Shown here one piece after another: positions 21,717-48,168 of a DNA stretch of 53,393 nt (positions are counted from its first letter, which is position 1; every line of letters begins with the position of its first letter). The notes beneath the pieces are model-generated. The model made no database searches and was not told where the DNA came from. It worked only from the letters and a program-made list of their open reading frames with translations. Source of the DNA: Tychonema sp. LEGE 07203 (GTDB taxonomy: Bacteria; Cyanobacteriota; Cyanobacteriia; Cyanobacteriales; Microcoleaceae); the NCBI RefSeq assembly GCF_015207285.1, contig NZ_JADEXD010000018.1, positions 1 through 53,393 of the forward strand. Direction: 5' to 3'. The position numbers were made by a program, and so were the translations under genes.

Positions 21717-21760
21717 TGCTGTATTCCTAAAGTTAGAAACCGCTGGCGTTGGCCTTAACA

Positions 21761-22909: not shown

Positions 22910-22940
22910 TAACTGGTTGGATTAATTAATCGCAAAATCT

Positions 22941-23208
22941 GTAGGGGCGGGTTCACAAACAATACCTGCTAAGAATCGACAACCTCAAAAACCCGCCCCC
23001 ACCCAACAATAAATCACTTACGCACAGGTGGTCAGAAACCGGGTTTTTTTACAAATATCCTTCCTTGTACCCTACAGATTAAATAAAAAACCCGGTTTCT
23101 TTGGTCTTGATGCTTCCAGGACTGATGTTATCTGTGGTGTGGGGGCGGGTTTATAAAGATTATTTTTGGGAATTACATATTGTTAGTGAACCCGCCCCTA
23201 CAGAAACA
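22941..23208. repeat. Cluster of three dispersed palindromes between copM and copB
   Basis: Element 1 (22941-23000) has GGGGCGGGTT...AACCCGCCCC arms. Element 2 (23032-23101) has AGAAACCGGGTTTTTT...AAAAAACCCGGTTTCT arms. Element 3 (23139-23202) has GGGGCGGGTTT...GAACCCGCCCC arms. All are non-coding; elements 1 and 3 are the same family. They separate copM from copB, so a joint transcript is unlikely. Confidence 0.85.
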
Positions 23209-23223
23209 ATGTTTATTTAACCT

Positions 23224-23241
23224 ATTTCATCCTGATTTCAC
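23224..23241 (+). promoter_or_regulatory. Box A, copy 3 (upstream of copB)
   Basis: ATTTCATCCTGATTTCAC, with one mismatch at the last base of the second half, 50 bp before the copB ATG and pointing toward it. Confidence 0.75.
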
Positions 23242-23290
23242 ATTTATCTGCAAAACTAAAATGTGAGTTCAGATTCGCCCCTACTCAACC

Positions 23291-25198: not shown

Positions 25199-25260
25199 AT
25201 AATTGCTTCTTAATTTAATTGAGGCAAAATTTTTAAAATCCTAAATTAATTGTCTAAAAA

Positions 25261-28359: not shown

Positions 28360-28456
28360 TTCGGCGGTTGAAACCGCGTCTACACAAACTTTCGTCGGCC
28401 CCAAGGCCGACTGGTTCATAAATTGGATGAGTAACCCGGATTTGAGTTCGTATCAT

Positions 28457-28486
28457 GTCCGATCGATCGCGGGTAATCGATCGGAC
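28457..28486. terminator. 11-bp perfect hairpin between convergent genes
   Basis: GTCCGATCGAT and ATCGATCGGAC form a perfect stem with an 8-base loop between the RND pump gene and the convergent htpG. There is no T run; it may be a bidirectional terminator. The flanks (28359-28440) contain a GGTTGAAACCGCG repeat fragment. Confidence 0.45.
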
Positions 28487-28539
28487 AGGATATCACCTCT
28501 AGCGAGCCCGGCACAGAATCAAACAGCCCTGGCGGTTAA

Positions 28540-30528: not shown

Positions 30529-30580
30529 ACTTTTTCGCTAGGTATTTTTTAAGAGTCAGCAGTCATTAGTCATCAGTCAG

Positions 30581-30835
30581 TAGTTATTAGTTATTAGTTA
30601 TTAGTTATTAGTTATTAGTTATTAGTTATTAGTTATTAGTTATTAGTTATTAGTCAACTATCAACTGATAACTATCAACTGACAACTAAGAGGGCCCGCA
30701 CGGGGCACCGCCCCTACCAACTGACAACTGCCAACTGACAACTGCCAACTGACAACTGCCAACTGAGGGCCCGCACCATCCACCGCCCCTACCAACTGAC
30801 AACTGCCAACTGCCAACAGCCAACTGACTAATGAC
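30581..30835. repeat. Heptamer repeat block upstream of htpG
   Basis: Ten perfect tandem copies of TAGTTAT occupy 30581-30650. A tract of CAACTGA/CAACTGC-type heptamers then runs to 30835, interrupted twice by GAGGGCCCGCAC...CACCGCCCCTACC, the family also found inside the oxoprolinase gene. This fills the 391-bp gap between the divergent... htpG start and the rppB stop; no gene here. Confidence 0.92.
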
Positions 30836-30919
30836 TATTTATTGATTTTGGGCGATCGCGCTACCTTTTGCCAAAGGGATTACCACAAAAAAATGATTCG
30901 GTTTCCCCCACATCATAGC

Positions 30920-32263
30920 TCACAAAGGCAACCGCAGCAGAAAGGTGCTGCCAAAACCCACTTGGCTGCGGGCGCTGAGGCTGCCGCGGTGGGCCCGGGC
31001 GATGGTTTGGGCGATCGCCAATCCAAGTCCCGATCCGCCGGTATGGCGCGATCGAGATCTGTTGACTCGGTAAAATCGATCGAATATGCGCCCTAAATCT
31101 GCCTCCGCTATCCCAATGCCGGTATCTTGCACCTGAATTATCGCCTCCTGGTGGCTGCAATCTAAGATGGCTGTGACTTTTCCCCCAGCCGGAGTGTATT
31201 GAATGGCATTGACAATTAAATTAGTAACTAAACGGTAAAGTCGATCGGCATCGCCAACAACATTCAATTGCTGCTGTACGCGGATTTCGGATGTTAGCGC
31301 TACCTCGGAGGATCTCGCCACAACTGCCAATTCTTCGACTAAATCGCTAACCAAGTCGTTCAAACAGCAAAGTTCAGGGCGATCGGATTTTGCTCGATCG
31401 TTGGTTTGAGAATCCATGCGTGCTAGCAGTAATAAATCGGTAACTAACTGAGTCAATCTGCGGTTTTGGCGATCGACTGTTTGCAAAATTTCCCGCGCTT
31501 CTTTCTCATCTAATTGAGGCATCAACAGCGCCGATTCTACAGTTGCTTGAGATGCCGCTAAAGGAGTCCGCAATTCGTGGGCAGCATCGGCTGTAAACTG
31601 TTGGATTTGTCGGTAGGAAGCATAAATCGGTTTCATTGCCAATCCTGCCAACAACCAGCTAGAAAAGGCGATCGAAATCAATGCAGCCGGCAATCCTAAT
31701 TTCAAAATCAATTTAACTGTATTGAGATAGTCGTTGAAATCTTGCAAGCTGCGCCCTACTTGAAAGTATCCCCAATCTTGCTGGGTTTTCGTGTGCAGCG
31801 CTACAGAAATTTGATGGTAAATATTGCCTTGCCTGTCAGTTATAGTTTGCCAGTGTTGGGGATTGAATGTCGGCGGCAATGTTTCGGGATAAGTGCCTGC
31901 TGTGGCAATTAAATTACCTGAATAATCGAACAAACGAATGTAGTAATAACTTTGGTCGAGCGCCGTTAAAATATGTCGGTTGGGCTGCGGTTGTTTCCAG
32001 GCGCTAACGCCAGTAACGCTGAGGTTTGGCAAAAGTTCGTTAACTATTGGTTCGAGTTTTCCTGGCTGCTGCAATTTGATTTCGAGGCTGTCGTGCAGCG
32101 TCCCCGCAACAGATGCTAATTCCCTGTCTATGGCTACCCAGTGAGCGTGGGCGATCGCCTTGTATACCCCAAATCCTAACAAGCTTAAAATTAAACCCAT
32201 GACTGCGGCATAGGAAATCGCTAAGTGCGATCGAGTTCGGTTAAATAGTTTGTTTTGATTCAC
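30920..32263 (-). CDS. rppB: Sensor histidine kinase RppB-like
   Basis: Membrane sensor kinase of 447 residues: TM1 ~16-36, periplasmic domain ~37-183, TM2 ~185-207, then HisKA with ADAAHELRTPL (phospho-acceptor H229) and HATPase with NAIQYTP, DTGIGIAEADL and GGSGLGLAI. The N-terminal sequence (NRTRSHLAISYAAVMGLIL; AHAHWVAIDRELASVAGTLHD) is that of the cyanobacterial RppB/NrsS group, which in Synechocystis responds to nickel or redox state. Here the neighbours point to copper. It lies downstream of its partner rppA, but 262 bp of repeats separate them, unusual for such pairs. Confidence 0.9.
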   Translation of the reverse strand: MNQNKLFNRTRSHLAISYAAVMGLILSLLGFGVYKAIAHAHWVAIDRELASVAGTLHDSLEIKLQQPGKLEPIVNELLPNLSVTGVSAWKQPQPNRHILTALDQSYYYIRLFDYSGNLIATAGTYPETLPPTFNPQHWQTITDRQGNIYHQISVALHTKTQQDWGYFQVGRSLQDFNDYLNTVKLILKLGLPAALISIAFSSWLLAGLAMKPIYASYRQIQQFTADAAHELRTPLAASQATVESALLMPQLDEKEAREILQTVDRQNRRLTQLVTDLLLLARMDSQTNDRAKSDRPELCCLNDLVSDLVEELAVVARSSEVALTSEIRVQQQLNVVGDADRLYRLVTNLIVNAIQYTPAGGKVTAILDCSHQEAIIQVQDTGIGIAEADLGRIFDRFYRVNRSRSRHTGGSGLGLAIAQTIARAHRGSLSARSQVGFGSTFLLRLPL

Positions 32264-32334
32264 AATTCATAAGTGGGTAATTGGTAATTGGTAGTTGGTA
32301 ATTTGTAATTGCTTGGGAAGTAAGTTTTTTATTT

Positions 32335-32520
32335 ACCGCAGAGAACGCAGAGAACGCAGAGAAAGGTTATAAGTAAGTCTATCTATGTTTTTTCATGACA
32401 TTTTTTTAGCTTTGAGAAGTTCTACTGGTTTCCCGGCTCTGGGAACCAGTTAAATTGTTAAGAACAGGCAAGATTGTTGTTCCACAAAAAAATAATTTTC
32501 TTGTGGCAGGAGAGCTCGCC
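32335..32520. repeat. Dispersed repeats separating rppA and rppB
   Basis: 32335-32366 is a GAACGCAGA tandem, and 32461-32520 is an AGAACAGGCAAGATTG...CTTGTGGCAGG element of the same family as the insertion in the EfeO-like gene (34637). Together with a GGTAATTGGTAGTT tract at 32277-32310 they fill the gap between the regulator and its kinase. Confidence 0.75.
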
Positions 32521-32525
32521 CTAAT

Positions 32526-33215
32526 TTAATTTTTCATTCGGTATCCAACGCCGTGTACGGTTTCAATTAAATTCGCGCAGCCAACCGATTCGAGTTTGCG
32601 CCGCAGCAAGCGCACTTGAGCTGCTACTACATTGCTAAAGGTATCTGCACTCGCCTCCCATAGCTGATTCCGAATTTGGTCAGTGGTAATAATTTGGCTG
32701 GGATGTTTCATAAAGTATTCTAGCAGTTGAAATTCTTTGTTTGTTAGCGAAATTATCTGGTTTTTACCGTTTTTATCGAGATGACAAGCAGTGCGATTTC
32801 CGCAGTCTAAACTGAGATTGCCGATTTGTAACTGTTGGGGCTGAATTTGGGGCGATCGCCTTTGCAGCGCCCGCAACCTTGCTAACAGTTCTGCCATCCC
32901 GAAGGGCTTGACTAAATAATCGTCAGCCCCGGCATCTAATCCCGCTACTTTATCTTCCATCCTGTCTTTTGCCGTCAGCATCAAAACCGGCAAAAAATTA
33001 TGTTTTGCGCGCAATCTTTGCAGCAGTTCTATTCCCGATAATCCCGGCAGCAACCAGTCAAAAATAGCTAGGGTGTATTGCGTCCAATAGCTGTCTAAAT
33101 ATTCCCAAGCTTCGTTGCCATCCTGCGCCCAGTCAACTATATATTTTTCTTGCTTTAAAGTGCGATCGATCGCTTTTCCTAAATCTGGCTCGTCTTCAAC
33201 TAACAAAACTCTCAT
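32526..33215 (-). CDS. rppA: OmpR-family response regulator RppA-like
   Basis: Transcription regulator of 229 residues. Receiver domain 1-120 with acidic pocket VEDEPD, phospho-acceptor D53 in IFDWLLPG and Lys in YLVKPFG; winged-helix DNA-binding domain ~130-229 ending in NLIETVHGVGYRMKN. The LLEYFMKHP and NVVAAQVRLLRRKL segments match the RppA/NrsR group. OmpR-family regulators bind direct repeats with an 11-bp period; a Box A copy lies 84 bp upstream pointing toward this gene, so RppA is the first candidate to bind Box A and to autoregulate. Functionally it would stand where CopR stands in Synechocystis. Confidence 0.92.
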   Translation of the reverse strand: MRVLLVEDEPDLGKAIDRTLKQEKYIVDWAQDGNEAWEYLDSYWTQYTLAIFDWLLPGLSGIELLQRLRAKHNFLPVLMLTAKDRMEDKVAGLDAGADDYLVKPFGMAELLARLRALQRRSPQIQPQQLQIGNLSLDCGNRTACHLDKNGKNQIISLTNKEFQLLEYFMKHPSQIITTDQIRNQLWEASADTFSNVVAAQVRLLRRKLESVGCANLIETVHGVGYRMKN

Positions 33216-33298
33216 AAGATTAATTTACGGCAGTAAATCTGTATACATTGTTGGCCGCCGACAGTCCCAACCCCCAACATATAAATTGACACACTTCT

Positions 33299-33316
33299 AT
33301 GAAATCAGCATGAAAT
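33299..33316 (-). promoter_or_regulatory. Box A, copy 4 (rppA / multicopper oxidase divergent region)
   Basis: On the minus strand it reads ATTTCATGCTGATTTCAT, 11-bp period, 84 bp from the rppA start and pointing to it. It is also 107 bp before the divergent oxidase gene. Confidence 0.75.
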
Positions 33317-33422
33317 CTCCTGACTGGGCATAAAAAGATAACAGTTGACACAAATTGACAACAAATTGGAAATGTCTTATACTCAAATACGACCAAAGTT
33401 TTGAAAATAATTTTCAACAAGT

Positions 33423-34427
33423 ATGGCAGACTTATCCGATCGCTCCGCCATGAAAAAGCCGGGGCACTGGAGCCGCCGCCAACTCCTGCAGCTAGGAATA
33501 GCTGGTGCTGGCGTAGCTTCCGGGGCGATCGCATGGCAAAATTTCACCCAAAAGCGATCGGCAGCAGCGAGAATACCCCCCATGCCCGCTGATGCAGTCG
33601 CAATTAGCAACATCAACCCGATGCAAATTGCGCGGGATTTTGATTACGGCACGGTGACGCGGGAAAACGGGCGCACGGTGCGGGAATTTCGCCTGGAAGC
33701 TAACACTTCGATCGTCCAACTCAACAGTGCCGTTAGTTTCAATACCTGGAATGTGAACAATCGCGTACCCGGGCCGACATTGAGGGCAACTGAGGGCGAT
33801 CGCATCCGCGTCATTTTTTCTAACAAAGCGGGACATTCTCATTCGCTGCACTTCCACGGCGTTCATCCCGTAGAAATGGACGGCGTTAAACCGATCCGAA
33901 ACGGCTCTGCATTTATCTATGAATTCGACGCTCTTCCCTACGGCGTACACCTATATCACTGTCACATTGCCCCAGTAACGCGCCACATCGGTAAAGGACT
34001 TTATGGAATGTTCATTGTCGATCCGCCAAAACCTCGTCCGCCAGCAGACGAAATTCTATTAATCATGGGAGGATACGACGTAAACGACAATCAAACAAAC
34101 GAACTTTACGCTTTTAACGGGCTGCCGAATTATTATATGAACAACCCAATCCCAATTTATAAAAATCAGCTCGTGCGACTGTACGTTATGAACATGATTG
34201 AGTACGAATCGGCAGTCACTTTTCACCTGCACGCCAATTTTTTTGACGTATACCGCACGGGAATGACTTTAACTCCCAGCGAGAAGACAGATGTCATTAC
34301 AATGGGAGTAGCTGAACGACATATTTTAGAATTTCGCTACGAATACAGCGGAAAATATATGTTTCATCCCCATCAAGATGCGATCGCCGAAGCAGGCTGC
34401 ATGGGTTTATTTGATGTCATCGGGTGA
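33423..34427 (+). CDS. Two-domain multicopper oxidase, Tat-exported
   Basis: Periplasmic copper enzyme of 334 residues. A twin-arginine signal (SRRQLLQLGIAGAG, 17-30) is followed by two cupredoxin domains. Domain 1 has HFH (143-145) and YHCHIAPVTRH, giving type-1 ligands C180 and H188 plus trinuclear-type histidines. Domain 2 has HLH (268-270) and HPH (315-317); the HPH replaces HCH, so it lacks a type-1 Cys. This is the layout of trimeric two-domain oxidases related to nitrite reductase, with type-1 copper in domain 1, not of three-domain laccases. It could oxidise Cu+ or Fe2+ in the periplasm. It is followed by an EfeO-like gene and an FTR1 permease, and shares an upstream region with rppA. 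A second ATG at 33450 is possible. Confidence 0.87.
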   Translation: MADLSDRSAMKKPGHWSRRQLLQLGIAGAGVASGAIAWQNFTQKRSAAARIPPMPADAVAISNINPMQIARDFDYGTVTRENGRTVREFRLEANTSIVQLNSAVSFNTWNVNNRVPGPTLRATEGDRIRVIFSNKAGHSHSLHFHGVHPVEMDGVKPIRNGSAFIYEFDALPYGVHLYHCHIAPVTRHIGKGLYGMFIVDPPKPRPPADEILLIMGGYDVNDNQTNELYAFNGLPNYYMNNPIPIYKNQLVRLYVMNMIEYESAVTFHLHANFFDVYRTGMTLTPSEKTDVITMGVAERHILEFRYEYSGKYMFHPHQDAIAEAGCMGLFDVIG

Positions 34428-34481
34428 AGCAAATTGCAGGCCCAGCACCCGCCGATGCAAATTAAGAAAGTATGAAATTAT

Positions 34482-34511
34482 TTGACAAACTCGATCGCTA
34501 TTAGGTAGAAT
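34482..34511 (+). promoter_or_regulatory. Sigma-70-type promoter of the iron-uptake genes
   Basis: TTGACA (34482-34487), 18-bp spacer, TAGAAT (34506-34511). It would start transcription near 34518, just before the Fur-like palindrome. Confidence 0.65.
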
Positions 34512-34521
34512 CTAATACTTG

Positions 34522-34552
34522 CGATTTATTGATAATTATTATCAATAAATCG
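34522..34552. promoter_or_regulatory. Fur-box-like palindrome
   Basis: A perfect 14-bp inverted repeat: CGATTTATTGATAA, spacer TTA, TTATCAATAAATCG. The GATAAT...ATTATC core is that of Fur boxes. Placed at the likely transcription start, it would block the promoter when iron is sufficient. It precedes the EfeO-like and FTR1 genes, which fits iron control. Confidence 0.75.
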
Positions 34553-34591
34553 CCAGCCAAACTGCACTCAACGTCAAAATCAGAAACAGCC

Positions 34592-35752
34592 ATGTTCTCA
34601 ACCTTTCGCTTATTACTCGCATCCGGCACCAAACTCAAGAACAGGCAAGATGGCTGTTCCACAGAGAAAGACTTTTCTTGCGGGGAAAGCGGGACGCCCT
34701 CCCGCAGCAGGCTTGTTGCAAATGTTGCAAGAGCTCAATTATTACCGACAGCCGCTGTTACAGCCATCCTCGTTGCTCTGACCGGTTGCGTTTCCACCCC
34801 CAAGGCCAGCAACACCGACACCGCAGCTAGCCCCGCAGCCACAGCTAGCCCCGCAGCCACAAGCGGTCACAGCATGAATCACGGAGGCAAACCCGGCATT
34901 AACATTAATACCGCGATTCTTTCGGAGTTAGATAAACTCGAAGCCAAGTTAGGAATTCCGGCACTTTCTAACAAAATTCAAGCCAGCCGCCCTTACGGAA
35001 AAACCGAAGAATTGGTCTCAAAAAATGTGATTACTCAACCCCAATTTGAGCAAATCAAAGACATGGTAACTATTGAAGATATCGTCCTCACAGGTGAAGC
35101 CAAGGATGTAGACTACATGACTAAACTGGGCTTGATGAAAGGGCATCTTTTTGTAGCACAAGAACTCTTGGATGCAGGCAAACCAGAGCAAGCAGAACCG
35201 CACATCGGCCACCCAGTCGAAGAAATTTATGCCGACGTGGAAGACCAGCTAAACGAGCGTAAAGTTCCCGAATTTAAAACTACTTTAATTAAATTGCAGG
35301 ATTTAGTCAAAGCGGGTGCAAAAGATCCGGCTGAAGTGAATGCAGAATTTGCCACATCAATGCAAGCAGTTGACGGAGCAATTGCCGCCCTTCCCGAAGC
35401 GCAGCGCCAAGATCCAAAATTCGTGCTGCAAGTGATTAACGGCTTGCTGGATACAGCTAATTCCGAATACGGAGCGGCCGTTGCCGACGGCAAAATTTCC
35501 GCAGTTATTGAATACCAAGATTCGCGGGGTTTCGTCATGTACGCGGAAATGCTGTACAAAGATATTGCCGCTCAAGTAGCTAAAAATAACCCGGAAATCG
35601 ACAAAGCAATTGTTGCCAACATGACTGAACTCAAGGAAAATTGGCCAACTGCGATCGCCCCGCCAGCCCCGATAAAAACCACCGAACAAGTCGCCCTGCT
35701 AGTTAAGGCGATCGAAAACGACAGCCAAAAAGTTCTCAAACCCGCCTCTTAA
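34592..35752 (+). CDS. EfeO/imelysin-like periplasmic lipoprotein of an iron-uptake unit
   Basis: A 386-residue exported protein starting at ATG 34592 (the upstream TTG lies in the Fur box). The hydrophobic signal (~50-64) ends in lipobox LTGC (C66), preceded by an abnormally long ~50-residue N-region created by a repeat insertion (residues ~16-40). A Ser/Ala/Pro linker with HSMNHGG is followed by a helix-hairpin-helix-like stretch (~110-165, INTAILSELDKLEAKLGIP) and a long helical domain with GHPVEE. The HxxE pattern recalls the metal motif of EfeO/imelysin (M75) proteins, but overall resemblance is weak. Directly ahead of FTR1 and behind a Fur-like box, it most likely captures iron for the permease. 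Function is inferred from position. Confidence 0.65.
   Translation: MFSTFRLLLASGTKLKNRQDGCSTEKDFSCGESGTPSRSRLVANVARAQLLPTAAVTAILVALTGCVSTPKASNTDTAASPAATASPAATSGHSMNHGGKPGININTAILSELDKLEAKLGIPALSNKIQASRPYGKTEELVSKNVITQPQFEQIKDMVTIEDIVLTGEAKDVDYMTKLGLMKGHLFVAQELLDAGKPEQAEPHIGHPVEEIYADVEDQLNERKVPEFKTTLIKLQDLVKAGAKDPAEVNAEFATSMQAVDGAIAALPEAQRQDPKFVLQVINGLLDTANSEYGAAVADGKISAVIEYQDSRGFVMYAEMLYKDIAAQVAKNNPEIDKAIVANMTELKENWPTAIAPPAPIKTTEQVALLVKAIENDSQKVLKPAS
34637..34710. repeat. Dispersed repeat inserted in the lipoprotein N-terminus
   Basis: AAGAACAGGCAAGATGGCTG...CTTTTCTTGCGGG resembles the intergenic element at 32459-32520. It keeps the reading frame and lies between the start codon and the signal-peptide core. 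Confidence 0.75.
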
Positions 35753-35762
35753 AAACGGTTTG

Positions 35763-35811
35763 TAGTGCGGACTGGAGTCCGCTCCGAGCTTGCGGACTCC
35801 AGTCCGCACTA
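35763..35811. terminator. 20-bp perfect hairpin
   Basis: Arms 35763-35782 and 35792-35811 are perfect inverted repeats (TAGTGCGGACTGGAG...CTCCAGTCCGCACTA) with a 9-base loop, directly after the EfeO-like stop and followed by AAAACTTT. It is either a strong transcription-attenuating hairpin between the two iron genes or a dispersed element related to 45111-45170. Confidence 0.7.
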
Positions 35812-35842
35812 AAACTTTCAAATATTATCGAAATTAAGTAAG

Positions 35843-35897
35843 TCTTCTTCCTTCTTCCCTCTTCCTTCTTCCCTCTTCCTTCTTCCTTCTTCCTTCT
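35843..35897. repeat. Pyrimidine heptamer tract before the FTR1 gene
   Basis: TTCTTCC/CTTCCCTC heptamers, as before the GDSL gene. It ends 10 bp before the ATG, leaving only AAAAAG as ribosome site. Confidence 0.85.
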
Positions 35898-35907
35898 AAT
35901 TAAAAAG

Positions 35908-36852
35908 ATGAATTTCAGCGAAGCATTGCCCACATTTGTAATTACCCTCCGCGAAGGAGTCGAAGCCGCTTTAGTTGTCGGAATAGTCCTCGCTTGCCTC
36001 AAAAAGTCGGGACAAAGTTATTTAAGTCCTTGGGTTTTTGGCGGTGTCGGTGTCGGATTGATCGCCAGCGCTTTGATCGGCGTACTGTTTGGCTGGACAA
36101 TTCAAATTTTGTCCGCATCCAATCAGCCTTTTGCACCGATTATGGAATCGCTGCTAGAGGCAACATTTGGAGTTTTAGCAATAGCAATGCTGAGCTGGAT
36201 GCTGCTCTGGATGACCAAGCAAGCGCGATTCATGAAAGCCGAAGTCGAAGGCGCAGTGAGTGCTGCCTTAACCCAAAAATCTCATGCAGGCTGGGGCGTA
36301 TTTAGCTTAGTTTTGATTGCCGTCTTGCGCGAAGGATTTGAAACCGTTTTGTTTGTCGTCGCCAAGTTTCAACAAGGCATTATTCCGGCAATCGGCGCTT
36401 TGGGAGGCATACTTTCAGCCGCCGGACTTGGCGTACTGCTGTTTAAATGGGGAGTGAAAATTAATATCAGGCTGTTTTTTAAGTATATGGGCATTTTCTT
36501 GCTCTTTATTGTAGCGGGTTTAGTGGTATCAACTCTGGGACTTTTTGACACCGCGATGAATACTTTATCGCAAGCAAATCGCGAGTCAGCAGCGCTGTGT
36601 TTCTATTACGAAAGATTTGCCAAAGAACACTCTTGCATTCTCGGGCCGATGGTGTGGAATACCTCGAAAGTGCTTCCCCAAGAAAAGTTTCCCGGCTTGT
36701 TGCTGAGCGCGCTGTTTGGCTACACGGACAAGCTTTATTTGGTGCAGGGCATTGCTTATTTCGTGTTTTTAATCACCGTTGGCGGGATTTATCTCCAAAG
36801 TTTGAGCGGTAAAGTGTTTTTTCCATTCAAAAAAACTGAGGTAACGAAATAG
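35908..36852 (+). CDS. FTR1 family iron permease (EfeU-like)
   Basis: Inner-membrane high-affinity iron transporter of 314 residues with seven hydrophobic spans. Two REXXE motifs, REGVEAA (residues ~16-20) and REGFET (~141-145), are the iron-binding signature. FTR1/EfeU permeases move ferric iron produced by a periplasmic oxidase: Fet3 in yeast, EfeB/EfeO in bacteria. The window offers the multicopper oxidase and the EfeO-like lipoprotein directly upstream; no EfeB was found. The hairpin and pyrimidine tract between the lipoprotein gene and this one may set relative expression. Confidence 0.92.
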   Translation: MNFSEALPTFVITLREGVEAALVVGIVLACLKKSGQSYLSPWVFGGVGVGLIASALIGVLFGWTIQILSASNQPFAPIMESLLEATFGVLAIAMLSWMLLWMTKQARFMKAEVEGAVSAALTQKSHAGWGVFSLVLIAVLREGFETVLFVVAKFQQGIIPAIGALGGILSAAGLGVLLFKWGVKINIRLFFKYMGIFLLFIVAGLVVSTLGLFDTAMNTLSQANRESAALCFYYERFAKEHSCILGPMVWNTSKVLPQEKFPGLLLSALFGYTDKLYLVQGIAYFVFLITVGGIYLQSLSGKVFFPFKKTEVTK

Positions 36853-40270: not shown

Positions 40271-40307
40271 TCTTGCCAACTTCTTGACATTTGCCCTGTA
40301 GAGTGAA
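40271..40307 (+). promoter_or_regulatory. Box B, copy 1 (upstream of the 40334 kinase)
   Basis: TCTTGCCAACT directly followed by TCTTGACATTT (11-bp direct repeat), then GCCCTGTAGAGTGAA. The TTGACA is 50 bp before the ATG. It matches copy 2 at 36 of 37 bases. Confidence 0.8.
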
Positions 40308-40333
40308 GTGTCAACTCACATTAAAGAAAGTTC

Positions 40334-42277
40334 ATGGTTAAAATTTCAGAAAAAATAGATGTCAACCTTAATATTATTCCCATGCACTCACAAAACCATA
40401 AGCAAGCTGTAGTCCAAATGCCATCCCCTATAAAAACATCAACGGATTTCAAACTAGGCCCCAACTGGTTGCAACAACTGCTTCGCCGCGCCCCGATTCG
40501 GTTAAAAATTAGCTTGGGTTATGCATTGATACTCAGTATTGCTGTTTTGGGAACGACTTGCGGACAGCTAGTTGGAAACTTCTACACCAAAAAAGCTTTG
40601 CATAAACTCGGTCTCGAACAAGAAAAAGCCCAGATTTTAAGCGAAATGAAAATTGCTGTGATGGAAACTCAATCAAACCAAAAGAAACTTATTTTTGTGA
40701 CGGGAGATCCTCAAGAATTTGTAGATGAAAAAGGTGAATTTCTTACTCAACTAAAAAAAGCTAGTCAGCTTTTATATTCGTTAAAAATTTTAGGTGATAG
40801 CAGTTTCAACCAAGCCGATACAGACATAATACAGTTGAATCAATTTTTACATAAGTATGACTCTACTCAAATAGCTTACACTCAAAAAATCCAGCGGACT
40901 TTGCAACAAATCGATCCTAAACGCTTGGGACAAAAAACAGGTATAGCCGCACAGCAGTCACTGTGGGATTTTACCAAAAGCCCGGAGGCGATCCTGTTTA
41001 ACGAACTTTCAGAAGATTTAACCAAATTTGTTAAACTTGCTTATCTAGGACAAGAACAAGCAAAATTCCAGCTAGAAAGCGCGCGAAAAATTGGTATCCA
41101 AATCAGCATCGCCAGTTTGTTACTGTCGCTGATCGGTGCCACTATTTTTGCATTGTCCATCAGTCGGATGATTTCTCAACCTATAGAAACACTCACTAAA
41201 GTTGCTTCTTCAGCAACTAAAAAATCGAATTTTAGCCTACAAGCACCTGTTACCACTGACGATGAAGTAGGAGAATTGACGATAGCTTTCAACAGTCTCA
41301 TTCAATCGGTAAAAGAGCATATTGAAGCACTAGAAATATCAAAACAAAGCTTAGAAATTCGCGTAACAGAACGAACAGAAGAACTTTCGCAAAAAAATCA
41401 CGAATTGCAGTCAGCTTACGACCAACTTGCAGATGCCTTGCAAAATCTTCAACAGACTCAAGCCCAGCTCATTCAAGCTGAAAAAATGTCTAGTTTGGGT
41501 CAAATGGTAGCAGGTATAGCTCACGAAATCAACAATCCTGTCAGTTTTATTTACAGCAATCTAGAACACGCTAGTAACTACGCTCAAGACTTGATGCGAT
41601 TAGTGCAATTGTACCAGCAGCAATATCCCAATCATAATAGTGTTATTCAAGCTGAAACTGAGGCGATTGATTTAGATTTTATGGCTGAGGATTTTGCTAA
41701 AATTATCCATTCTATGAAAAATGGTGCTGACAGAATTCGTCGAATAGTTCTGTCTTTGCGTAACTTTTCTAGGCTAGATGAATCCCAGCTCAAACTTGCC
41801 AATATTCATGAAGGAATTGACAGTACATTGGTAATTCTCAATCAGCGATTGGAGGGAAAAATTACAGTGATTAAAGACTATGAATATTTACCCAGAGTCA
41901 AGTGTTATGCAGCGCTTTTGAATCAGGTGTTTATGAATATAATCGATAATGCGATTGGAGCCATTGAGGAACGAAAAGTTAATAGTAAAGCCTCAAGCGA
42001 TGCGACTGAGAAGCCTACCATCTGGATTCATACGGAAACAATAGATACCGAGCTGGTTAGAATCGAAATTAGAGATAACGGTACTGGGATAATGCCCGAA
42101 TTTTTACCTAAAGTATTCGATCCTTTTTTCACCACAAAAGATGTAGGCAAAGGAACTGGCTTGGGACTAACTATTTCTTATCAACTTATTGAAAAGCACC
42201 AAGGTAAAATAGAGGTTTTTTCGGAACGCGGCGCAGGCACAAAATTTTGGATAACTCTGCCAGTTGAACCGTCTTAA
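40334..42277 (+). CDS. Membrane histidine kinase with HAMP domain
   Basis: A 647-residue sensor kinase: TM1 ~57-80, a ~170-residue mainly helical periplasmic domain (4-helix-bundle-like, MCP/CHASE3 style), TM2 ~253-280, HAMP ~281-335, coiled coil ~336-385, then HisKA with GIAHEINNPVSF (H397) and HATPase with DNGTGIMPEF and GKGTGLGLTISYQ. The kinase core closely resembles the ethylene-receptor-like kinase at 36941 (RNFSRLDE, IHEGIDSTL, YAALLNQVFMNII). ATG 40334 or 40382 could be the start; the first fits the Box B spacing. It is the only gene here with both Box A and Box B upstream. No adjacent response regulator in the same operon. Confidence 0.88.
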   Translation: MVKISEKIDVNLNIIPMHSQNHKQAVVQMPSPIKTSTDFKLGPNWLQQLLRRAPIRLKISLGYALILSIAVLGTTCGQLVGNFYTKKALHKLGLEQEKAQILSEMKIAVMETQSNQKKLIFVTGDPQEFVDEKGEFLTQLKKASQLLYSLKILGDSSFNQADTDIIQLNQFLHKYDSTQIAYTQKIQRTLQQIDPKRLGQKTGIAAQQSLWDFTKSPEAILFNELSEDLTKFVKLAYLGQEQAKFQLESARKIGIQISIASLLLSLIGATIFALSISRMISQPIETLTKVASSATKKSNFSLQAPVTTDDEVGELTIAFNSLIQSVKEHIEALEISKQSLEIRVTERTEELSQKNHELQSAYDQLADALQNLQQTQAQLIQAEKMSSLGQMVAGIAHEINNPVSFIYSNLEHASNYAQDLMRLVQLYQQQYPNHNSVIQAETEAIDLDFMAEDFAKIIHSMKNGADRIRRIVLSLRNFSRLDESQLKLANIHEGIDSTLVILNQRLEGKITVIKDYEYLPRVKCYAALLNQVFMNIIDNAIGAIEERKVNSKASSDATEKPTIWIHTETIDTELVRIEIRDNGTGIMPEFLPKVFDPFFTTKDVGKGTGLGLTISYQLIEKHQGKIEVFSERGAGTKFWITLPVEPS

Positions 42278-42329
42278 AGTTAGAAAAAAACAGGATATAT
42301 AACCTTAATAAAACTTAAGCATCAAGCCG

Positions 42330-42398
42330 AAATAAACCGGACTTTTCACCTAATTTGCGGGCGGCAGCGAGGGATTTTCGCCAAAAACCCGGTTTCTA
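42330..42398. repeat. Diverged CCGGGTTT inverted-repeat element
   Basis: AATAAACCGGACTTTT...CAAAAACCCGGTTTCT with GTGCGTCCAAGACTAG after it, matching the tails of the other copies in weakened form. Confidence 0.65.
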
Positions 42399-42426
42399 CC
42401 CATCCGTGCGTCCAAGACTAGCTGAA

Positions 42427-42463
42427 TCTTGCCAAGTTCTTGACATTTGCCCTGTAGAGTGAA
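42427..42463 (+). promoter_or_regulatory. Box B, copy 2
   Basis: TCTTGCCAAGT then TCTTGACATTT, then GCCCTGTAGAGTGAA; TTGACA is 54 bp before GTG 42494. Similarity to copy 1 continues ~20 bp downstream (CCAACTCACATT). Confidence 0.8.
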
Positions 42464-42493
42464 ATTGCCAACTCACATTGAAGGGATTTGACG

Positions 42494-42802
42494 GTGAAAA
42501 CTTCAACTAAAATCACTCTTGTTGACAACTTAAGCAACGGCGAGGCTAATGAAGACTCGTTAGCTGCGGGTAATGCCAGCAAAGACAAGATGCTGGGCGG
42601 GCAGACAAAAGATGTGGTTCCACCATTCATTAATAATTTAGACGGCAGAATGTGGCACGATCCACTCGATCGCACAATAGGTAACGATTTGCTATCCGGT
42701 GAAGAAGAGAACGAAAAATCACTTAAAAAATTTCCAACTAAAATAAATCTTGCTAAGTTCTTGACTTTTGCGATCTACAGTGAAACTACAAACCTAAATT
42801 GA
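42494..42802 (+). CDS. Decayed or diverged copy of the following PepSY gene
   Basis: A 102-codon frame from GTG 42494 (MKTSTKITLVDN). Its first ~27 bases match the start of the PepSY gene (GTGAAAACTTCAAC then near-identical), and a DRTI motif recurs in both at similar depth, so it looks like a tandem duplicate. It has lost the hydrophobic signal core, and its last ~20 codons are the Box B copy 3 sequence read through, ending in a TGA that overlaps a TTG of the next frame. No known domain. It is either a pseudogene with a live promoter or a young small protein. Confidence 0.4.
   Translation: MKTSTKITLVDNLSNGEANEDSLAAGNASKDKMLGGQTKDVVPPFINNLDGRMWHDPLDRTIGNDLLSGEEENEKSLKKFPTKINLAKFLTFAIYSETTNLN
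42748..42784 (+). promoter_or_regulatory. Box B, copy 3 (upstream of the PepSY gene)
   Basis: TCTTGCTAAGT then TCTTGACTTTT, then GCGATCTACAGTGAA; TTGACT is 56 bp before GTG 42817. Confidence 0.78.
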
Positions 42803-42816
42803 CAAAATTTAACACC

Positions 42817-43314
42817 GTGAAAACTTCAACAAACATCGCTCTAGCAGCAGCTTTGGTAGGTACTTTAGCAGTCAGTGGATTAGTCCGAACTGTGTACGCT
42901 TCGCCAGCAAAATCTCAGGTTGCCGTCATGCCCGATCGCACCATCCGCAAAGCAGCACCTGAAGCCAGTGATGGCGACGGCGAAACTAACGACGATGCCG
43001 AAGAAAAGCAAGAATCAAGTCGCCTGCAATCTCTAGCTAAAATTACACCACAACAAGCAAAAGCGGCGGCGGAAGCAGCGAAAGGTGGCACAGCAAGTCG
43101 CGTCAAATTAGAAAACGAAGATGGCAATGTTGTGTACTCAGTTGCGATCGGTCAGCAGGAAGTAAGTGTAGATGCCGGTAACGGTAAAATCCTCCAAACG
43201 CAAAGCCTAAAAGCTGAGGGTAAGGAAAGCGTTTCTCCCCGCAGCAGCGTTCAATTTTCCGAGGCGGCTGGCGGCGATGGCGATGGGGAAACGAATGATG
43301 ATGCCAAGAAATAA
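42817..43314 (+). CDS. Exported PepSY-domain protein with twin acidic motifs
   Basis: A 165-residue protein from GTG 42817: signal peptide 1-29 (cleavage near VYA-SP), then an acidic segment, a PepSY-like domain (~75-130, ITPQQAKAAAEAAKGGTASRV...NVVYSVAIG...VSVDAGNGKI) and an acidic tail. The decapeptide DGDGETNDDA occurs twice, at residues 52-61 and 154-163, bracketing the domain. The spacing of acidic side chains could bind Ca or another cation, as in EF-hand-like loops. PepSY proteins are often found with OmpR-type two-component systems and act as periplasmic regulators or metal-linked factors. The TTG at 42799 would overlap the previous frame by 4 bp (TTGA) but gives a poorer signal peptide. 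Confidence 0.75.
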   Translation: MKTSTNIALAAALVGTLAVSGLVRTVYASPAKSQVAVMPDRTIRKAAPEASDGDGETNDDAEEKQESSRLQSLAKITPQQAKAAAEAAKGGTASRVKLENEDGNVVYSVAIGQQEVSVDAGNGKILQTQSLKAEGKESVSPRSSVQFSEAAGGDGDGETNDDAKK

Positions 43315-43502
43315 AGCTCTAACGAATTAGCTTTTTTGGGATTACCAATAGATTAAGGGCGGAACCAATATTGCCCGCCTTTAATTGAGTAAATATCCAG
43401 CCTGCAATACTGACTTGCTTTCAGTAATTTCTTGTAAAAAAGCCAGTTTTAGGAGACTATCTAATCTCACTTTTTTTATAAAGATTAACAAGGAGAAATA
43501 TC

Positions 43503-44270
43503 ATGAATAAGATGCTAAACAGGGTTCCAGAGGTTACAGGTTCCTTCTGGATTATTAAGGTTCTGGCTACCACAGTAGGTGAAACTATGGCTGATTATCT
43601 ATCAGTAAACCTGAACCTTGGTTTAAGCGTTACATCCTATGTGATGAGCGCTGTGTTACTGATGGCGCTTTTGAATCAGTTTAAGCTGAAACGGTATGTG
43701 CCAGCTAGTTACTGGATTGTCGTCGTTTTAATGAGCATCACTGGCACGCTAATTACGGATAGATTGGTAGACGAGCTGGGAGTTAGCTTGATGACAACCA
43801 TTATAGTTTTTAGTGCAATATTGTCTGCCGTTTTTGGACTGTGGTATGCGACAGAAAAAACATTAGCTATGCACTCCATCAACACAGCTAAGAGAGAGCT
43901 ATTTTATTGGGCTGCTATCTTATTTACGTTTGCCTTGGGTACGGCAACAGGAGACTTTATAGCAGAGGCTTTAAAACTGGGTTATGCACAATCAGCATTA
44001 GTGTTTGCGGTTTTAATTGCGATAGTAGCTGCTGGTTATTATTACTTCAGAATGAATGCAGTCTTGGCATTTTGGGTGGCCTACATCTTGACTCGTCCAC
44101 TGGGAGCATCTACTGGCGATTTATTGTCACAACCTACCACAAATGGTGGTTTTGGTTTTGGTACGATCGGAACCAGTATGCTTTTTCTTTGTATAATCGT
44201 GAGTCTGGTTATTTACTTAAGCCTTAAGCAGAAGAAACTAGCGCCACTGCCGATCGACCAACAAAACTGA
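43503..44270 (+). CDS. DUF347 (COG4705) membrane protein, first copy
   Basis: A 255-residue inner-membrane protein with four internal repeats, each two helices. The repeat core is Y/FW..KV.ATT.GE...D.L: FWIIKVLATTVGETMADYLS, then YWIVVVLMSITGTLITDRL, YWAAILFTFALGTATGDFIA and FWVAYILTRPLGASTGDLLS. This is the DUF347 repeat pattern; buried acidic residues in Gly-Glu/Asp...Asp motifs suggest ion or small-molecule transport. Function unknown. A strong ribosome site (AAGGAG) precedes the ATG. There is no Box B directly ahead, so it probably depends on the PepSY promoter, 188 bp upstream of its start. Confidence 0.82.
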   Translation: MNKMLNRVPEVTGSFWIIKVLATTVGETMADYLSVNLNLGLSVTSYVMSAVLLMALLNQFKLKRYVPASYWIVVVLMSITGTLITDRLVDELGVSLMTTIIVFSAILSAVFGLWYATEKTLAMHSINTAKRELFYWAAILFTFALGTATGDFIAEALKLGYAQSALVFAVLIAIVAAGYYYFRMNAVLAFWVAYILTRPLGASTGDLLSQPTTNGGFGFGTIGTSMLFLCIIVSLVIYLSLKQKKLAPLPIDQQN

Positions 44271-44281
44271 TTAGCGATCGA

Positions 44282-44318
44282 TCTTTCCAAGTTCTTGACA
44301 TTTATCATCTAGAGTGAA
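44282..44318 (+). promoter_or_regulatory. Box B, copy 4 (upstream of the second DUF347 gene)
   Basis: TCTTTCCAAGT then TCTTGACATTT, then ATCATCTAGAGTGAA; TTGACA is 55 bp before ATG 44350. A GTG inside the box (44314) opens the frame earlier but is not a credible start. Confidence 0.8.
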
Positions 44319-44349
44319 ACCGCTAAAGTACGATAACCCGATCGCAATT

Positions 44350-45105
44350 ATGAGCAAACTTCCACAAATCACTGCCTTTTTCTGGATAATGAAGATATGT
44401 GCAACCACTCTGGGGGAAACGGCAGGAGACCTTTTATCCATGACGTTAAACGTGGGCTATGCGGTTAGTTCGATGATATTGATTGGAATTTTTTTAGCTA
44501 CTCTTGTCTCTCAATTGATATCGAAAAGCTATAACCCATTGCTTTATTGGACTGTCATCCTTTCAACCAGCACAGCGGGTACAACGATCTCCGATTACAT
44601 GGATCGTACTTTAGGGCTGGGCTACGCTACAGGATCTGCGATTTTAATTACTATTCTCTTGGCTATTTTGGCGTTCTGGCGATTCAGTGTTGGGTCTCTA
44701 TCTGTTAATAATGTCAAAACACCTAAAATTGAGCTGCTTTATTGGACTGCAATTCTATTTTCAAATACTTTGGGTACTGCCTTGGGTGATTTCCTAGCCG
44801 ATACTTCTGGACTTGGATTTGCAGGAGGAGCGCTCCTAATTTCTAGTTTGCTTGCGCTGGTATTGGGAGCATATTATTATACTCAAATTTCGCCAGTCTT
44901 GTTGTTTTGGATTGCGTTCGTACTCACCCGACCGTTTGGTGCCACACTTGGGGATGTTATGACCAAATCACAGGAAAAAGGCGGTCTAAATTTTGGTACG
45001 GTAGGCTCATCTATAGTCCTGCTGTCAATACTTTTAGTCTGTATCGCCTTCACAACTTTCAATCAGAGAAAACTCATGGGGACTGTGCCTGCTAGCGATG
45101 AATAA
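44350..45105 (+). CDS. DUF347 (COG4705) membrane protein, second copy
   Basis: A 251-residue paralogue of the preceding gene with the same four-repeat build: FFWIMKICATTLGETAGDLLS, YWTVILSTSTAGTTISDYMD, YWTAILFSNTLGTALGDFLA and FWIAFVLTRPFGATLGDVMT. The acidic/glycine motifs are all kept, so both copies are probably functional, perhaps as a heterodimer. It has its own Box B at a spacing like that of the other three, indicating control separate from but parallel to the first copy. ATG 44350 is chosen because the longer frame starts within Box B. A hairpin at 45208-45245 ends the unit. Confidence 0.83.
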   Translation: MSKLPQITAFFWIMKICATTLGETAGDLLSMTLNVGYAVSSMILIGIFLATLVSQLISKSYNPLLYWTVILSTSTAGTTISDYMDRTLGLGYATGSAILITILLAILAFWRFSVGSLSVNNVKTPKIELLYWTAILFSNTLGTALGDFLADTSGLGFAGGALLISSLLALVLGAYYYTQISPVLLFWIAFVLTRPFGATLGDVMTKSQEKGGLNFGTVGSSIVLLSILLVCIAFTTFNQRKLMGTVPASDE

Positions 45106-45276: not shown

Positions 45277-45966
45277 CTAGACTTGTCTGGTTTGTAACCT
45301 CAGCATTGCGATGCAGAGCGTCAGCCAAAGATAGCCGATTCCGTAGCCACCAATGATATCTGTTGGCCAGTGTACTCCTATATACATCCGACTCAGGCCA
45401 ATAAGAGCGATCGTCAAAACAGCTAAAGTATATATTAATTTAGAAAACTTCGGAAAGTGAGCGGAAAGCAGGTAAGCTAGAAACCCATACATTACAAAAC
45501 TTCCTAAAGCGTGACCGCTCGGAAAACTAAAGGATGTTTCTGCAATTAAGCTCGGAAAAAGATGTGGACGAGGTTTAGTAAAAAACAACTTCAATCCAGT
45601 ATTTAGAATCAAGGCTCCCAAACAAGCAAGAGCAAAAAATTTAGCTTCCTCGCGGTGATGCTGCCACCAGAGAATTCCCAGCGTGACTGCCACAATCACT
45701 ATAACTACACGGGGATCAGCAAGCTGAGTAATTGTTAGCATCACAGCATCTAGACTCGGATTTGCATATCCGTGCAGCCAGTACAGCCAAGAAGTATCAA
45801 AAGCAAAAGCTTCTCGTTCTAAGATTTCTTCAAATAGCCACGCTAAAATAAAACTGATTACCAGACAACTGGTAAGTCCAACTACACCAATTGTCACAAT
45901 TAAAGTATTTAAGCGTGGGTTGATATGCTGCAACCAAAATTCATAGATTTTTCGTAACATAATCAA
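45277..45966 (-). CDS. PAP2-type membrane phosphatase
   Basis: Lipid or undecaprenyl-pyrophosphate-type phosphatase of 229 residues with six hydrophobic spans. The three-part phosphatase signature is complete: KLFFTKPRPH (KX6RP), FPSGH (PSGH) and SRMYIGVHWPTD (SRX5HX3D). The active site faces the periplasm in this family. It lies 92 bp downstream of the sensor kinase at 46059 on the same strand and could be its co-transcribed target. The substrate cannot be read from the sequence. Confidence 0.9.
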   Translation of the reverse strand: MIMLRKIYEFWLQHINPRLNTLIVTIGVVGLTSCLVISFILAWLFEEILEREAFAFDTSWLYWLHGYANPSLDAVMLTITQLADPRVVIVIVAVTLGILWWQHHREEAKFFALACLGALILNTGLKLFFTKPRPHLFPSLIAETSFSFPSGHALGSFVMYGFLAYLLSAHFPKFSKLIYTLAVLTIALIGLSRMYIGVHWPTDIIGGYGIGYLWLTLCIAMLRLQTRQV

Positions 45967-46058: not shown

Positions 46059-47306
46059 TTAACTTATTTTAAAAGAGTGATCTGGCAATTTTACGGTGAA
46101 ACAACTGCTAACTCCGAGCTTACTGGTGACGGTAATTGAGCCACCGTGATTTTGGGCAATGGTTTGGGCGATTGCTAATCCCAAACCAGAACCTCCATTC
46201 CAATAGGAACGAGATTCATCTGCTCGCCAAAACCGCTCAAAAATCAGCTTAATCTGCTCCGGTGCAATTCCCACACCCGTATCTCGCACGCTGACAATGC
46301 AATAGGAAACGAGACGGTTAGCTGTAATTTCTACTGTTCCTCCAGATGGCGTGTAGTGAAGTGCATTTTGAATCAAATTGGTGAACAGTCGCGTTAGTTG
46401 GTTTGAATCACCTACTAAATTAATATTTTCTGTTATCTGAAATTTTAAATTAATTTGTTTGAGTTCGGCGCGAGACTGATAAAGCTGAACTAAGTTATCC
46501 AAAACAACAGTTAAATTGACAGAATCTTTATTGATGCTTGCCACTTTATCGGTTCTTGCTAACAGCAGCAAATCTTCGGTTAGCTGCGTCATTTGATTCG
46601 CCGCACTAGCAATAGCCTGAAACTTTTCGGCATCTAACTCTCTCATCCCCTCTGGGTATTTTAATGCTACGGCTAGATTACTTTTGATCGCCATCAAGGG
46701 GCTACGAAATTCGTGAGAAGCATCGGCAGTAAACTGCTTTAAACTTTTAAAACTATCCTCAATTGGCTGCATCGCTAAACGAGTCAATATCACTCCGCCA
46801 ACACCGCTAAAAATCAAGGCTATAATAATTCCACTCCCTAGCCCTAAATTTAATTTATTTAAGGTTTCGTCAATTTCATCGAGGGATTGGCTTACTCTTA
46901 TATAGCCGATTATTTTACCACTTTCCCTCTCAATTACTGGCAAAGTAATTCCTTGAATTCGTTTTTTTTTTGTTGGCAATTCTACTGTATTGCTTAATGA
47001 TAATGGTATGGCAAGCACAAATTTTCCTTGCTGAAATATCGTATTTCCGTTATTGTCAAATAATTGTAAGCCTTGATTGTTATCAATCAGAGTTTGCACG
47101 TTAAAATCAGTATCAAATTTTATGCGTCCGTTTTCCCATTCTGTATTGGCAGATGCTCCTTCTCCTAAAACTGTCAGTTTGTCTGTTAGCTGGTGGGTGA
47201 GACTGCGAGCGAAGATTACTCTAACGCCAATTGCAAAAATACTTAATATTGATACCAGTACAAACAGGTAAGATAATAGCAAACGAGAACGTATTTTTTC
47301 AAACAT
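46059..47306 (-). CDS. OmpR-system sensor histidine kinase
   Basis: A 415-residue membrane kinase: TM1 ~11-31, periplasmic domain ~32-155, TM2 ~156-178, short linker without an obvious HAMP, HisKA with ADASHEFRSPL (H198) and HATPase with NALHYTP, DTGVGIAPEQI and GGSGLGLAI. Architecture is like CusS/CopS/RppB kinases of the metal-responsive type. The partner response regulator lies upstream at 47491; a 184-bp gap holds a CGCAGA repeat. The PAP2 gene follows. The signal is unknown, but the neighbouring PepSY and DUF347 genes suggest an envelope or metal cue. Confidence 0.9.
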   Translation of the reverse strand: MFEKIRSRLLLSYLFVLVSILSIFAIGVRVIFARSLTHQLTDKLTVLGEGASANTEWENGRIKFDTDFNVQTLIDNNQGLQLFDNNGNTIFQQGKFVLAIPLSLSNTVELPTKKKRIQGITLPVIERESGKIIGYIRVSQSLDEIDETLNKLNLGLGSGIIIALIFSGVGGVILTRLAMQPIEDSFKSLKQFTADASHEFRSPLMAIKSNLAVALKYPEGMRELDAEKFQAIASAANQMTQLTEDLLLLARTDKVASINKDSVNLTVVLDNLVQLYQSRAELKQINLKFQITENINLVGDSNQLTRLFTNLIQNALHYTPSGGTVEITANRLVSYCIVSVRDTGVGIAPEQIKLIFERFWRADESRSYWNGGSGLGLAIAQTIAQNHGGSITVTSKLGVSSCFTVKLPDHSFKIS

Positions 47307-47490: not shown

Positions 47491-48168
47491 TTAGTGATGG
47501 CTGCTGAGTCGATAACCAATGCCGTAAACTGTTTCGATAAAGTTTTCGGAACTTCCGGCTGCTTTGAGTTTGCTACGCAAATTTGTGATGTGAGTTCTGA
47601 CTGTTCCTTCTCCTGAAGCTTTATCAAAATCCCATAATTTATCTAAGATTGCAGAGCGTGTTAAAACTTGAGTGGGACTTTTTAAGAAACATTCTAATAT
47701 CATATACTCTTTGGGAGTTAAAGATAAGTCGTTTCCTGCATAAGTAACGGTGCAGCTACTGGGATTGAGTTGCAAATCACCGTGGGTTAGAATCAGGGGT
47801 TTGGTTTCTGGAATTCTCCGAGATAAAGCTCTAATTCGGGCGGCTAATTCTTCTAATTCAAAGGGCTTAACTAAGTAGTCGTCAGCTCCTGCATCGAGTC
47901 CAATGACTCTATCTGAGGTGGTATCGCGTGCTGTCAGCATCAAGATGAGAACGTGAGAGCGATCGGCACGCAGGCGCTTGCACAGTGATATACCATCTAA
48001 TTTGGGCAGCATCAAATCTAACAAAATTAGGTCGTAATTAGCCGATCGCGCATATTCCCAACCCTCTAGCCCGTCAGTTGCTATATCTACGACGTGGTTT
48101 TGATGCCTTAAATCTTCTGCTAGAGGTTTTGCAATGCGATCGTCGTCTTCAATTAGCAAAATTTTCAT
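47491..48168 (-). CDS. OmpR-family response regulator
   Basis: A 225-residue regulator: receiver domain with acidic pocket IEDDD, phospho-acceptor D51 (LLDLMLPKLDG) and YLVKPFE; winged-helix effector with LTPKEYMILECFL, EGTVRTHITNLRSKL and ending NFIETVYGIGYRL. It is encoded ahead of its kinase (46059). It is the second OmpR-type regulator in the window and the natural candidate to bind Box B, whose 11-bp direct repeats suit this family. I see no Box B before its own gene. Confidence 0.92.
   Translation of the reverse strand: MKILLIEDDDRIAKPLAEDLRHQNHVVDIATDGLEGWEYARSANYDLILLDLMLPKLDGISLCKRLRADRSHVLILMLTARDTTSDRVIGLDAGADDYLVKPFELEELAARIRALSRRIPETKPLILTHGDLQLNPSSCTVTYAGNDLSLTPKEYMILECFLKSPTQVLTRSAILDKLWDFDKASGEGTVRTHITNLRSKLKAAGSSENFIETVYGIGYRLSSHH

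Follow-up and report, generated by a model that had tools for sequence, protein, structure and literature searches.

The closest described relative of the locus treated here is the mmf cluster, cargo of Tn6048 in Cupriavidus metallidurans CH34, where it is reported to be upregulated by Pb and Zn (PMC12029693, PMC2864759; statements on the literature here and below refer to excerpts of the cited papers). Among 254 records found in a plasmid search with one of the DUF347 proteins studied here (DUF347b), one, Variovorax pBS64, carries the mmf cassette, which encodes a PepSY protein, an undecaprenyl-diphosphatase, two DUF347 proteins, a regulator and a kinase (PMC4914505). For Frankia it has been proposed that DUF347 and UppP together tolerate lead by exporting and precipitating the metal (PMC4531530). 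Here we examined a 53,393-nucleotide stretch of Tychonema sp. LEGE 07203 (the window), in which an initial annotation had noticed four near-identical promoter elements, called boxes below, and had proposed that they switch on a shared set of genes. We consider it quite likely that these boxes are the operators of a cyanobacterial OmpR-type regulator that controls an mmf-like module, acting by class II activation and probably answering a divalent metal. This reading draws on comparisons of sequence, which cover the box with its -10 element and spacing, the lineages and target genes with which it is found, its link to one regulator family and the homology of the effectors to those of mmf.

In each box an 11-bp direct repeat, CTTNNCNAGTT-CTTGAC, is combined with a -10 element, TAnnnT, that lies a constant distance downstream. 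The 22-base repeat (at most 3 mismatches) matches the window only at the four places first annotated, 40271, 42427, 42748 and 44282, all on the plus strand, and has 0 matches in 100 shuffles of the window. The boxes are listed with their E-values from profile R1, which was built from 30 sites (alignment A1):

40272..40308, plus strand: box 1, repeat CTTGCCAACTT/CTTGAC, -10 element TAGAGT at 40299-40304, upstream of a histidine kinase gene (E 2.1e-6)
42428..42464, plus strand: box 2, repeat CTTGCCAAGTT/CTTGAC, -10 element TAGAGT at 42455-42460, upstream of open reading frame (ORF) 42494 (E 1.5e-7)
42749..42785, plus strand: box 3, repeat CTTGCTAAGTT/CTTGAC, -10 element TACAGT at 42776-42781, upstream of a PepSY gene and inside the 3' end of ORF 42494 (E 6.5e-8)
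44283..44319, plus strand: box 4, repeat CTTTCCAAGTT/CTTGAC, -10 element TAGAGT at 44310-44315, upstream of DUF347b (E 2.4e-8)

The initial annotation had given the distances from TTGACA to the start codon as 50, 54, 56 and 55 bp, which is correct, and had recognized the 11-bp direct repeat as the operator form of OmpR-type regulators, which the presence of a tandem repeat of about 10-11 bp supports. Its 37-bp consensus fits boxes 1 and 2 best and does not hold for box 3, which reads CTTGCTAAGTTCTTGACTTTTGCGATCTACAGTGAAA, or for box 4, which has ATCATC before TAGAGT. The assignment of TTGACA to the -35 position has to be given up because the conserved -10 element TAnnnT begins only 9 bp downstream of TTGACA; the -35 region is filled by the repeat, as with class II activators. 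An ordinary sigma-70 promoter lacking a dedicated regulator is accordingly highly improbable: TTGACA is a perfect -35 hexamer, but the sole conserved -10-like element stands 9 bp after it rather than 16-18, the upstream half of the repeat is conserved as well, and only 4 strong copies exist in 6.6 Mb.

The spacing was checked with a 17-base repeat core (at most 2 mismatches) in 21 stretches fetched solely for encoding DUF347. TAnnnT lies at columns 28-33 in 25 of the 31 core sites, a count obtained by a search blind to the -10 element with a core whose choice, from a matrix holding the -10 letters, was not fully blind; no other TAnnnT offset from columns 19 to 50 reaches 4 sites, and the perfect cores carry TAnnnT in 14 of 14 cases. 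The core was counted 48 times (47 distinct) in 26 stretches totalling 450,569 bases, against a mean of 3.5 (range 0-10) for 30 shuffled cores, and columns beyond the box are not conserved. Downstream ORFs were assigned by a simple rule that left 11 of 153 sites without an ORF, and in 45 of the 142 sites with an assigned ORF the start codon falls 54-57 bp after the first T of TTGAC.

The genes of the window module are the following:

40334..42277, plus strand: membrane histidine kinase (Pfam HAMP, HisKA, HATPase_c), putative target of box 1
42494..42802, plus strand: doubtful ORF behind box 2, no Pfam match (scanned from 42488)
42817..43314, plus strand: exported-type PepSY protein with an acidic DGDGETNDD stretch and a GTG start (PF03413, E 5.5e-9, scanned from 42799)
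43503..44270, plus strand: DUF347a, four-repeat membrane protein without a box of its own, counterpart of MmfC1
44350..45105, plus strand: DUF347b, four-repeat membrane protein with 8 predicted long helices, counterpart of MmfC2
45277..45966, minus strand: PAP2 phosphatase (PF01569), undecaprenyl-diphosphatase-like, a module gene without a box here
46059..47306, minus strand: sensor histidine kinase with an ArlS_N-type sensor region and acidic EIDE at residues 144-147, probable partner of the 47491 regulator
47491..48168, minus strand: OmpR-type response regulator whose recognition helix reads THITNLR; it is the proposed activator at all four boxes

This is the same set as in mmf, with its PepSY protein (MmfA), phosphatase (MmfB), DUF347 types (MmfC1, MmfC2), regulator and kinase. 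DUF347a is 55% identical to MmfC1 and DUF347b 50% to MmfC2; the PepSY protein is 38% identical to MmfA over 61 residues, and the PAP2 protein 27% to MmfB. The PAP2 protein also gives a weak NCBIfam match, below cut-off, to the undecaprenyl-diphosphatase SepP. The layout differs, in that the window genes stand under several boxed promoters on both strands whereas mmf forms one operon, and no box was seen before mmfA in pBS64 (L224) by eye, outside any systematic search. The structure model of DUF347b has a mean predicted local distance difference test (pLDDT) score of 87.1, but no transporter fold can be named because the best PDB match reaches only E 0.42.

The shared switch first proposed for four genes is supported as such, with the qualification that the gene behind box 2 is a doubtful ORF and that the first DUF347 gene (43503) is not itself preceded by a box. 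The start of ORF 42494 resembles that of the PepSY gene. Its codon changes are 3 synonymous to 8 nonsynonymous relative to L049 and 4 to 7 relative to L050, and we rejected it as a conserved gene since neither comparison gives a sign of purifying selection. Read in frame, box 3 encodes the C-terminal residues LAKFLTFAIYSETTNLN of this ORF (42749-42802), and similar tails occur in L049, L050, L200 and L201. The kinase behind box 1 has a close relative in L198 with the same box upstream (87% identity in alignment A2, which includes one wrongly assigned protein, L187:6025-6792, and others assigned by the simple rule).

Adjoining the module, positions 18647-36852 hold what appears to be a metal island, with a copper-type P-ATPase, a CopZ-like and a DUF305-like protein, CusB/CusA-like efflux, an RppA/RppB pair, a multicopper oxidase and an FTR1-like iron permease, all named by eye except RppA, which alone was scored.

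Outside the window the box is rare in its own genome. Across 6,612,997 bases a 34-base element (at most 3 mismatches) occurs at the four window places only, its reversed control has 0 matches, and profile R1 ranks the four boxes at E 2.4e-8 to 2.1e-6, followed by two sites on contig C94 (E 0.0041 and 0.0118) near a paralogous regulator/kinase pair, with noise beginning at E 0.16. The genome-wide search suggested by the initial annotation thus found no scatter of motifs lacking genes behind them, and the four-place-only matches and the R1 ranking rule out a scattered repeat. A spreading repeat or a duplicated leader, free of regulatory meaning, is likewise a barely credible origin for the boxes. 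Boxes 1 and 2 do have similar leaders and first codons, so that local duplication may have carried promoter and start together, but the columns behind the box are not conserved, and the same box with the same -10 spacing precedes different families in distant genera.

We searched for the box more widely in a collection of one genome per species (84,980 species). The exact 36-base pattern was found in 35 stretches, all cyanobacterial by record title, among them stretches of Fischerella, Nostoc, Microcoleus, Hydrococcus, Acaryochloris and Chamaesiphon and of a Scytonema plasmid. When one mismatch is allowed in 244 genomes from the phylum, 6 carry the pattern, every one of them a member of the window's order, and the backwards control has 0 matches. 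A longer element with at most 3 mismatches is present in 5 of 195 genomes from that order, again with 0 for its control. R1 matches at E<=0.05 are found in 104 of these 195 genomes, where chance alone would give about 10, and at E<=1e-4 in 31; DUF347 is present in 21 of 148 genomes of the order. Three genomes, G090 (L059, L142), G148 (L048, L138-L141) and G107 (L128), have 13-14 box matches each at E<=0.05, often clustered on one contig, for example before BacA, NRAMP-like (by eye) and PepSY genes. In G148 the contig with many boxes has the same gene coordinates as plasmid pCHRO.01 of Chroococcidiopsis thermalis PCC 7203, which is typed conjugative, and the Nostoc plasmid pANSO36B carries DUF347, regulator, kinase and PepSY genes together.

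The 39 sites of the exact pattern led to 35 proteins, three frames running off the stretch end (one also a duplicate) and one site having no ORF. These proteins comprise 11 DUF347, 3 PepSY, 3 signal peptidase S26, 3 LCM methyltransferase and 1 response regulator, so that 15 of the 35 are DUF347, PepSY or regulator proteins, the remainder being other or unnamed. This set is free of the bias towards DUF347 that affects a wider set of 128 proteins, whose stretches were partly fetched via DUF347 and which contains 26 PepSY, 24 DUF347, 5 PepSY_TM, 4 Sbt_1, 4 LCM, 3 PAP2 and 2 BacA proteins (25 of 67 families shown); an acidic DGDGE-like motif lies within the first 120 residues in 22 of the 128. Because in other cyanobacteria the box often precedes membrane and envelope genes, relatives of which respond to Pb and Zn elsewhere, it probably marks an overlooked metal- or envelope-stress regulon. 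Genes of the bicarbonate-transporter superfamily Sbt_1 behind boxes in L120, L124, L145 and L147 would be unexpected in a regulon of that kind. Three Acaryochloris stretches (L189, L192, L193) have the box before an apparent LCM-type methyltransferase gene.

The target genes also bear on a phosphate (Pho) box bound by the PhoB-like SphR. The cyanobacterial Pho box is a CTTAACCT repeat, and PhoB boxes resemble the present one in their 11-bp period and their 9-bp gap to the -10 element. We nevertheless hold this explanation to be most improbable, as the genome has no further strong site, the box is associated with the 47491 clade, and no phosphate-uptake family is among the 25 of 67 families shown for the wider set or the 15 shown for the exact-pattern set (SphR and pst were not searched for).

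Which regulator reads the box was approached through co-occurrence, proximity and covariation. Orthologues of the 47491 regulator (at least 300 bits) are found in 32 of the 195 genomes of the order; 21 genomes have both a box (E<=1e-4) and the regulator, 10 the box only, 11 the regulator only and 153 neither (Fisher p 3.8e-13), and when the 15 genomes that supplied model sites are left out the counts are 10, 9, 8 and 153 (p 3.5e-7), p-values which, like the one below, are optimistic because rows are related by descent. A listed regulator match is found no more than 10 kb from 36 of the 84 box matches at E<=1e-3, and for 30 of these 36 the regulator reaches at least 300 bits. In L047 and L128 boxes stand directly upstream of 47491 orthologues, which suggests autoregulation there. 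The recognition helix varies together with position 15 of the box. For regulators that have a box no more than 8 kb away, all 7 of VH type (57-61% identity to 47491, like the one on C94) are accompanied by T alone at this position. The 38 of TH type divide into 27 with G alone, 6 with a mixture, 3 with T alone and 2 with A alone (T-only versus rest, Fisher p 2.6e-6, after dropping an eighth VH row, an unrelated regulator from L135 with 42% identity, and rows with other helices). This p-value is a guide only, since the loci share descent and were mostly found with a G-rich profile. A unit regulated by 47491, as first suggested, is therefore probable. On C94 itself (L071, G000:C94, 7000-10318) the paralogous pair, with 61% identity, is accompanied by two CTTTCCGAGTTCTTTACTTT boxes, one of them before a small exported-type protein; pair and boxes may form a further regulon of this genome, of T type.

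The initial annotation had also named RppA, and control of the boxes by RppA/RppB (32526-33215 and 30920-32263), a pair linked to metals and also known as NrsR/NrsS, deserves consideration since the pair is likewise OmpR-type and only 7 kb separate it from box 1. The 32526 regulator is a true RppA (411.9 bits against a model cut-off of 250, which 47491 misses with 234.2 bits), and in G166 a close RppA relative is near the boxes (L050) while the 47491 orthologue is on another contig. Across the 25 stretches L046-L070, however, a 47491 relative of at least 66% identity is present in 13 and a close RppA relative (94%) in L050 alone, and box specificity follows the 47491-type recognition helix. 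We regard control by RppA/RppB as very unlikely.

From these patterns in the sequence we infer how the module might work. The sensor kinase (46059-47306) would activate the OmpR-type regulator (47491-48168), for which the boxes would be the operators. Head-to-tail binding of two regulator molecules to the 11-bp repeats CTTNNC and CTTGAC would cover the -35 region and bring RNA polymerase to TAnnnT 9 bp downstream by class II activation. Transcription would begin about 25-30 bases upstream of the start codon, which may account for the constant distance from box to start. The regulon would be an mmf-like envelope module of PepSY and DUF347 membrane proteins, joined in some genomes by a PAP2/BacA lipid-carrier phosphatase and the kinase/regulator pair, which may export or precipitate metal. 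Its likely trigger would be an excess of divalent metal, for example lead or zinc.

A signal of general envelope stress (cationic peptides, membrane damage or acid), with PepSY acting on the kinase as DbfQ does on DbfS in Vibrio, is in our view possible but rather unlikely. PepSY is the commonest family behind boxes in the wider set (26/128), DbfQ interacts with the sensor DbfS in a pathway sensitive to membrane integrity (PMC12714742), and the sensor region does not have fully conserved metal ligands. BacA and PAP2 phosphatases would also fit, and pHB44, which carries mmf, raised bacitracin resistance (PMC4914505). Against envelope stress, DUF347 or mmf is tied in the excerpted papers to lead, zinc or divalent metal, the boxes adjoin the apparent copper/metal island of the window (by eye), and NRAMP-like and TolC-like genes stand behind boxes in L059 and L126 (by eye, unscored). 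In addition, an ExxE motif is kept in half of the kinases: it lies at residues 144-147 in 21 of 41 (EIDE in the window kinase) and anywhere in residues 31-155 in 29.

Several observations weigh against a divalent-metal regulon under the 47491 regulator, besides the optimism of the p-values. In the window no box precedes the regulator operon, the PAP2 gene or DUF347a, and elsewhere roughly every second gene that follows a box is of another family. The sites near TH-type regulators include 10 with T and 3 with A beside 49 with G. Ten genomes have a strong box and no regulator of at least 300 bits; in four of them (G022, G027, G034, G057) a 60%-type paralogue lies within 3.2 kb, and in G002, G073, G086, G128, G149 and G193 neither such a regulator nor a listed nearby 60%-type paralogue was found. 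Conversely, 11 genomes with the regulator have no box at E<=1e-4, and 5 have none at E<=1e-3. At an 85% threshold no set of metal ligands is conserved in the sensor regions of the 41 kinases, where neither a Cys nor a His common to many of them was found. As MmfR is only 34% identical to 47491, the induction data for mmf are not directly transferable, and the carriers of mmf do not point clearly to metals either: the excerpted report on pHB44 and pBS64 describes no resistance to the heavy metals tested, and for pHB44 a changed growth in the presence of iron and vanadium (PMC4914505), and two mmf-bearing Cupriavidus gilardii strains did not outgrow an mmf-less strain under Cd, Co or Zn, to the extent that the excerpt reports on one of the two (PMC12029693). 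Since mmf carriers show no clear gain in metal resistance, Pb and Zn are not the sole candidate signals.

We judge as evenly balanced the broader proposal that a mobile, mmf-like multi-metal effector set has been placed under a lineage-specific OmpR-type regulator across many cyanobacterial genera, on chromosomes and on plasmids typed conjugative, with THxTNLR helices reading CTTGAC and VHLRxLR helices reading CTTTAC, a one-base split of paralogue targets. The unit had been thought undescribed; its effector set is already known as the mmf cluster, and no account of the box, or of a regulon in cyanobacteria that rests on it, was found among the open-licence papers listed. In photosynthetic bacteria, DUF347, a membrane family of unassigned function, would thereby be given a regulon with its regulator and a signal that can be tested. 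The operator motif may be used in annotating cyanobacterial genomes, and regulator paralogues in which helix and operator base apparently change together could be a test case for two-component insulation.

Compared with described two-component systems, the box resembles the site of BqsR/CarR in Pseudomonas aeruginosa, TTAAG-N6-TTAAG, which is likewise an 11-bp direct repeat and an activator site whose downstream half overlaps the -35; BqsRS is also adjoined by PepSY genes, and its half-site sequence differs from that of the box (PMC4682146, PMC12714742). BqsS has an Fe2+-binding ExxE motif (PMC12666569), whereas only those 21 of the 41 cyanobacterial kinases carry an ExxE at one common place, near the second membrane helix. 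DbfQRS shares with the present locus a small PepSY gene near kinase and regulator (PMC12714742), whereas the cyanobacterial PepSY genes carry boxes of their own and are joined by DUF347 and PAP2. RppA/RppB is a cyanobacterial OmpR-type pair too, and RppA is the best NCBIfam match of 47491, below its cut-off; RppA is nearer to MmfR (40%) than 47491 is. The control of mmf differs accordingly, its kinase MmfS being 29% identical to the window kinase, so that the effectors of the module match those of mmf and the regulators of the two are not orthologous.

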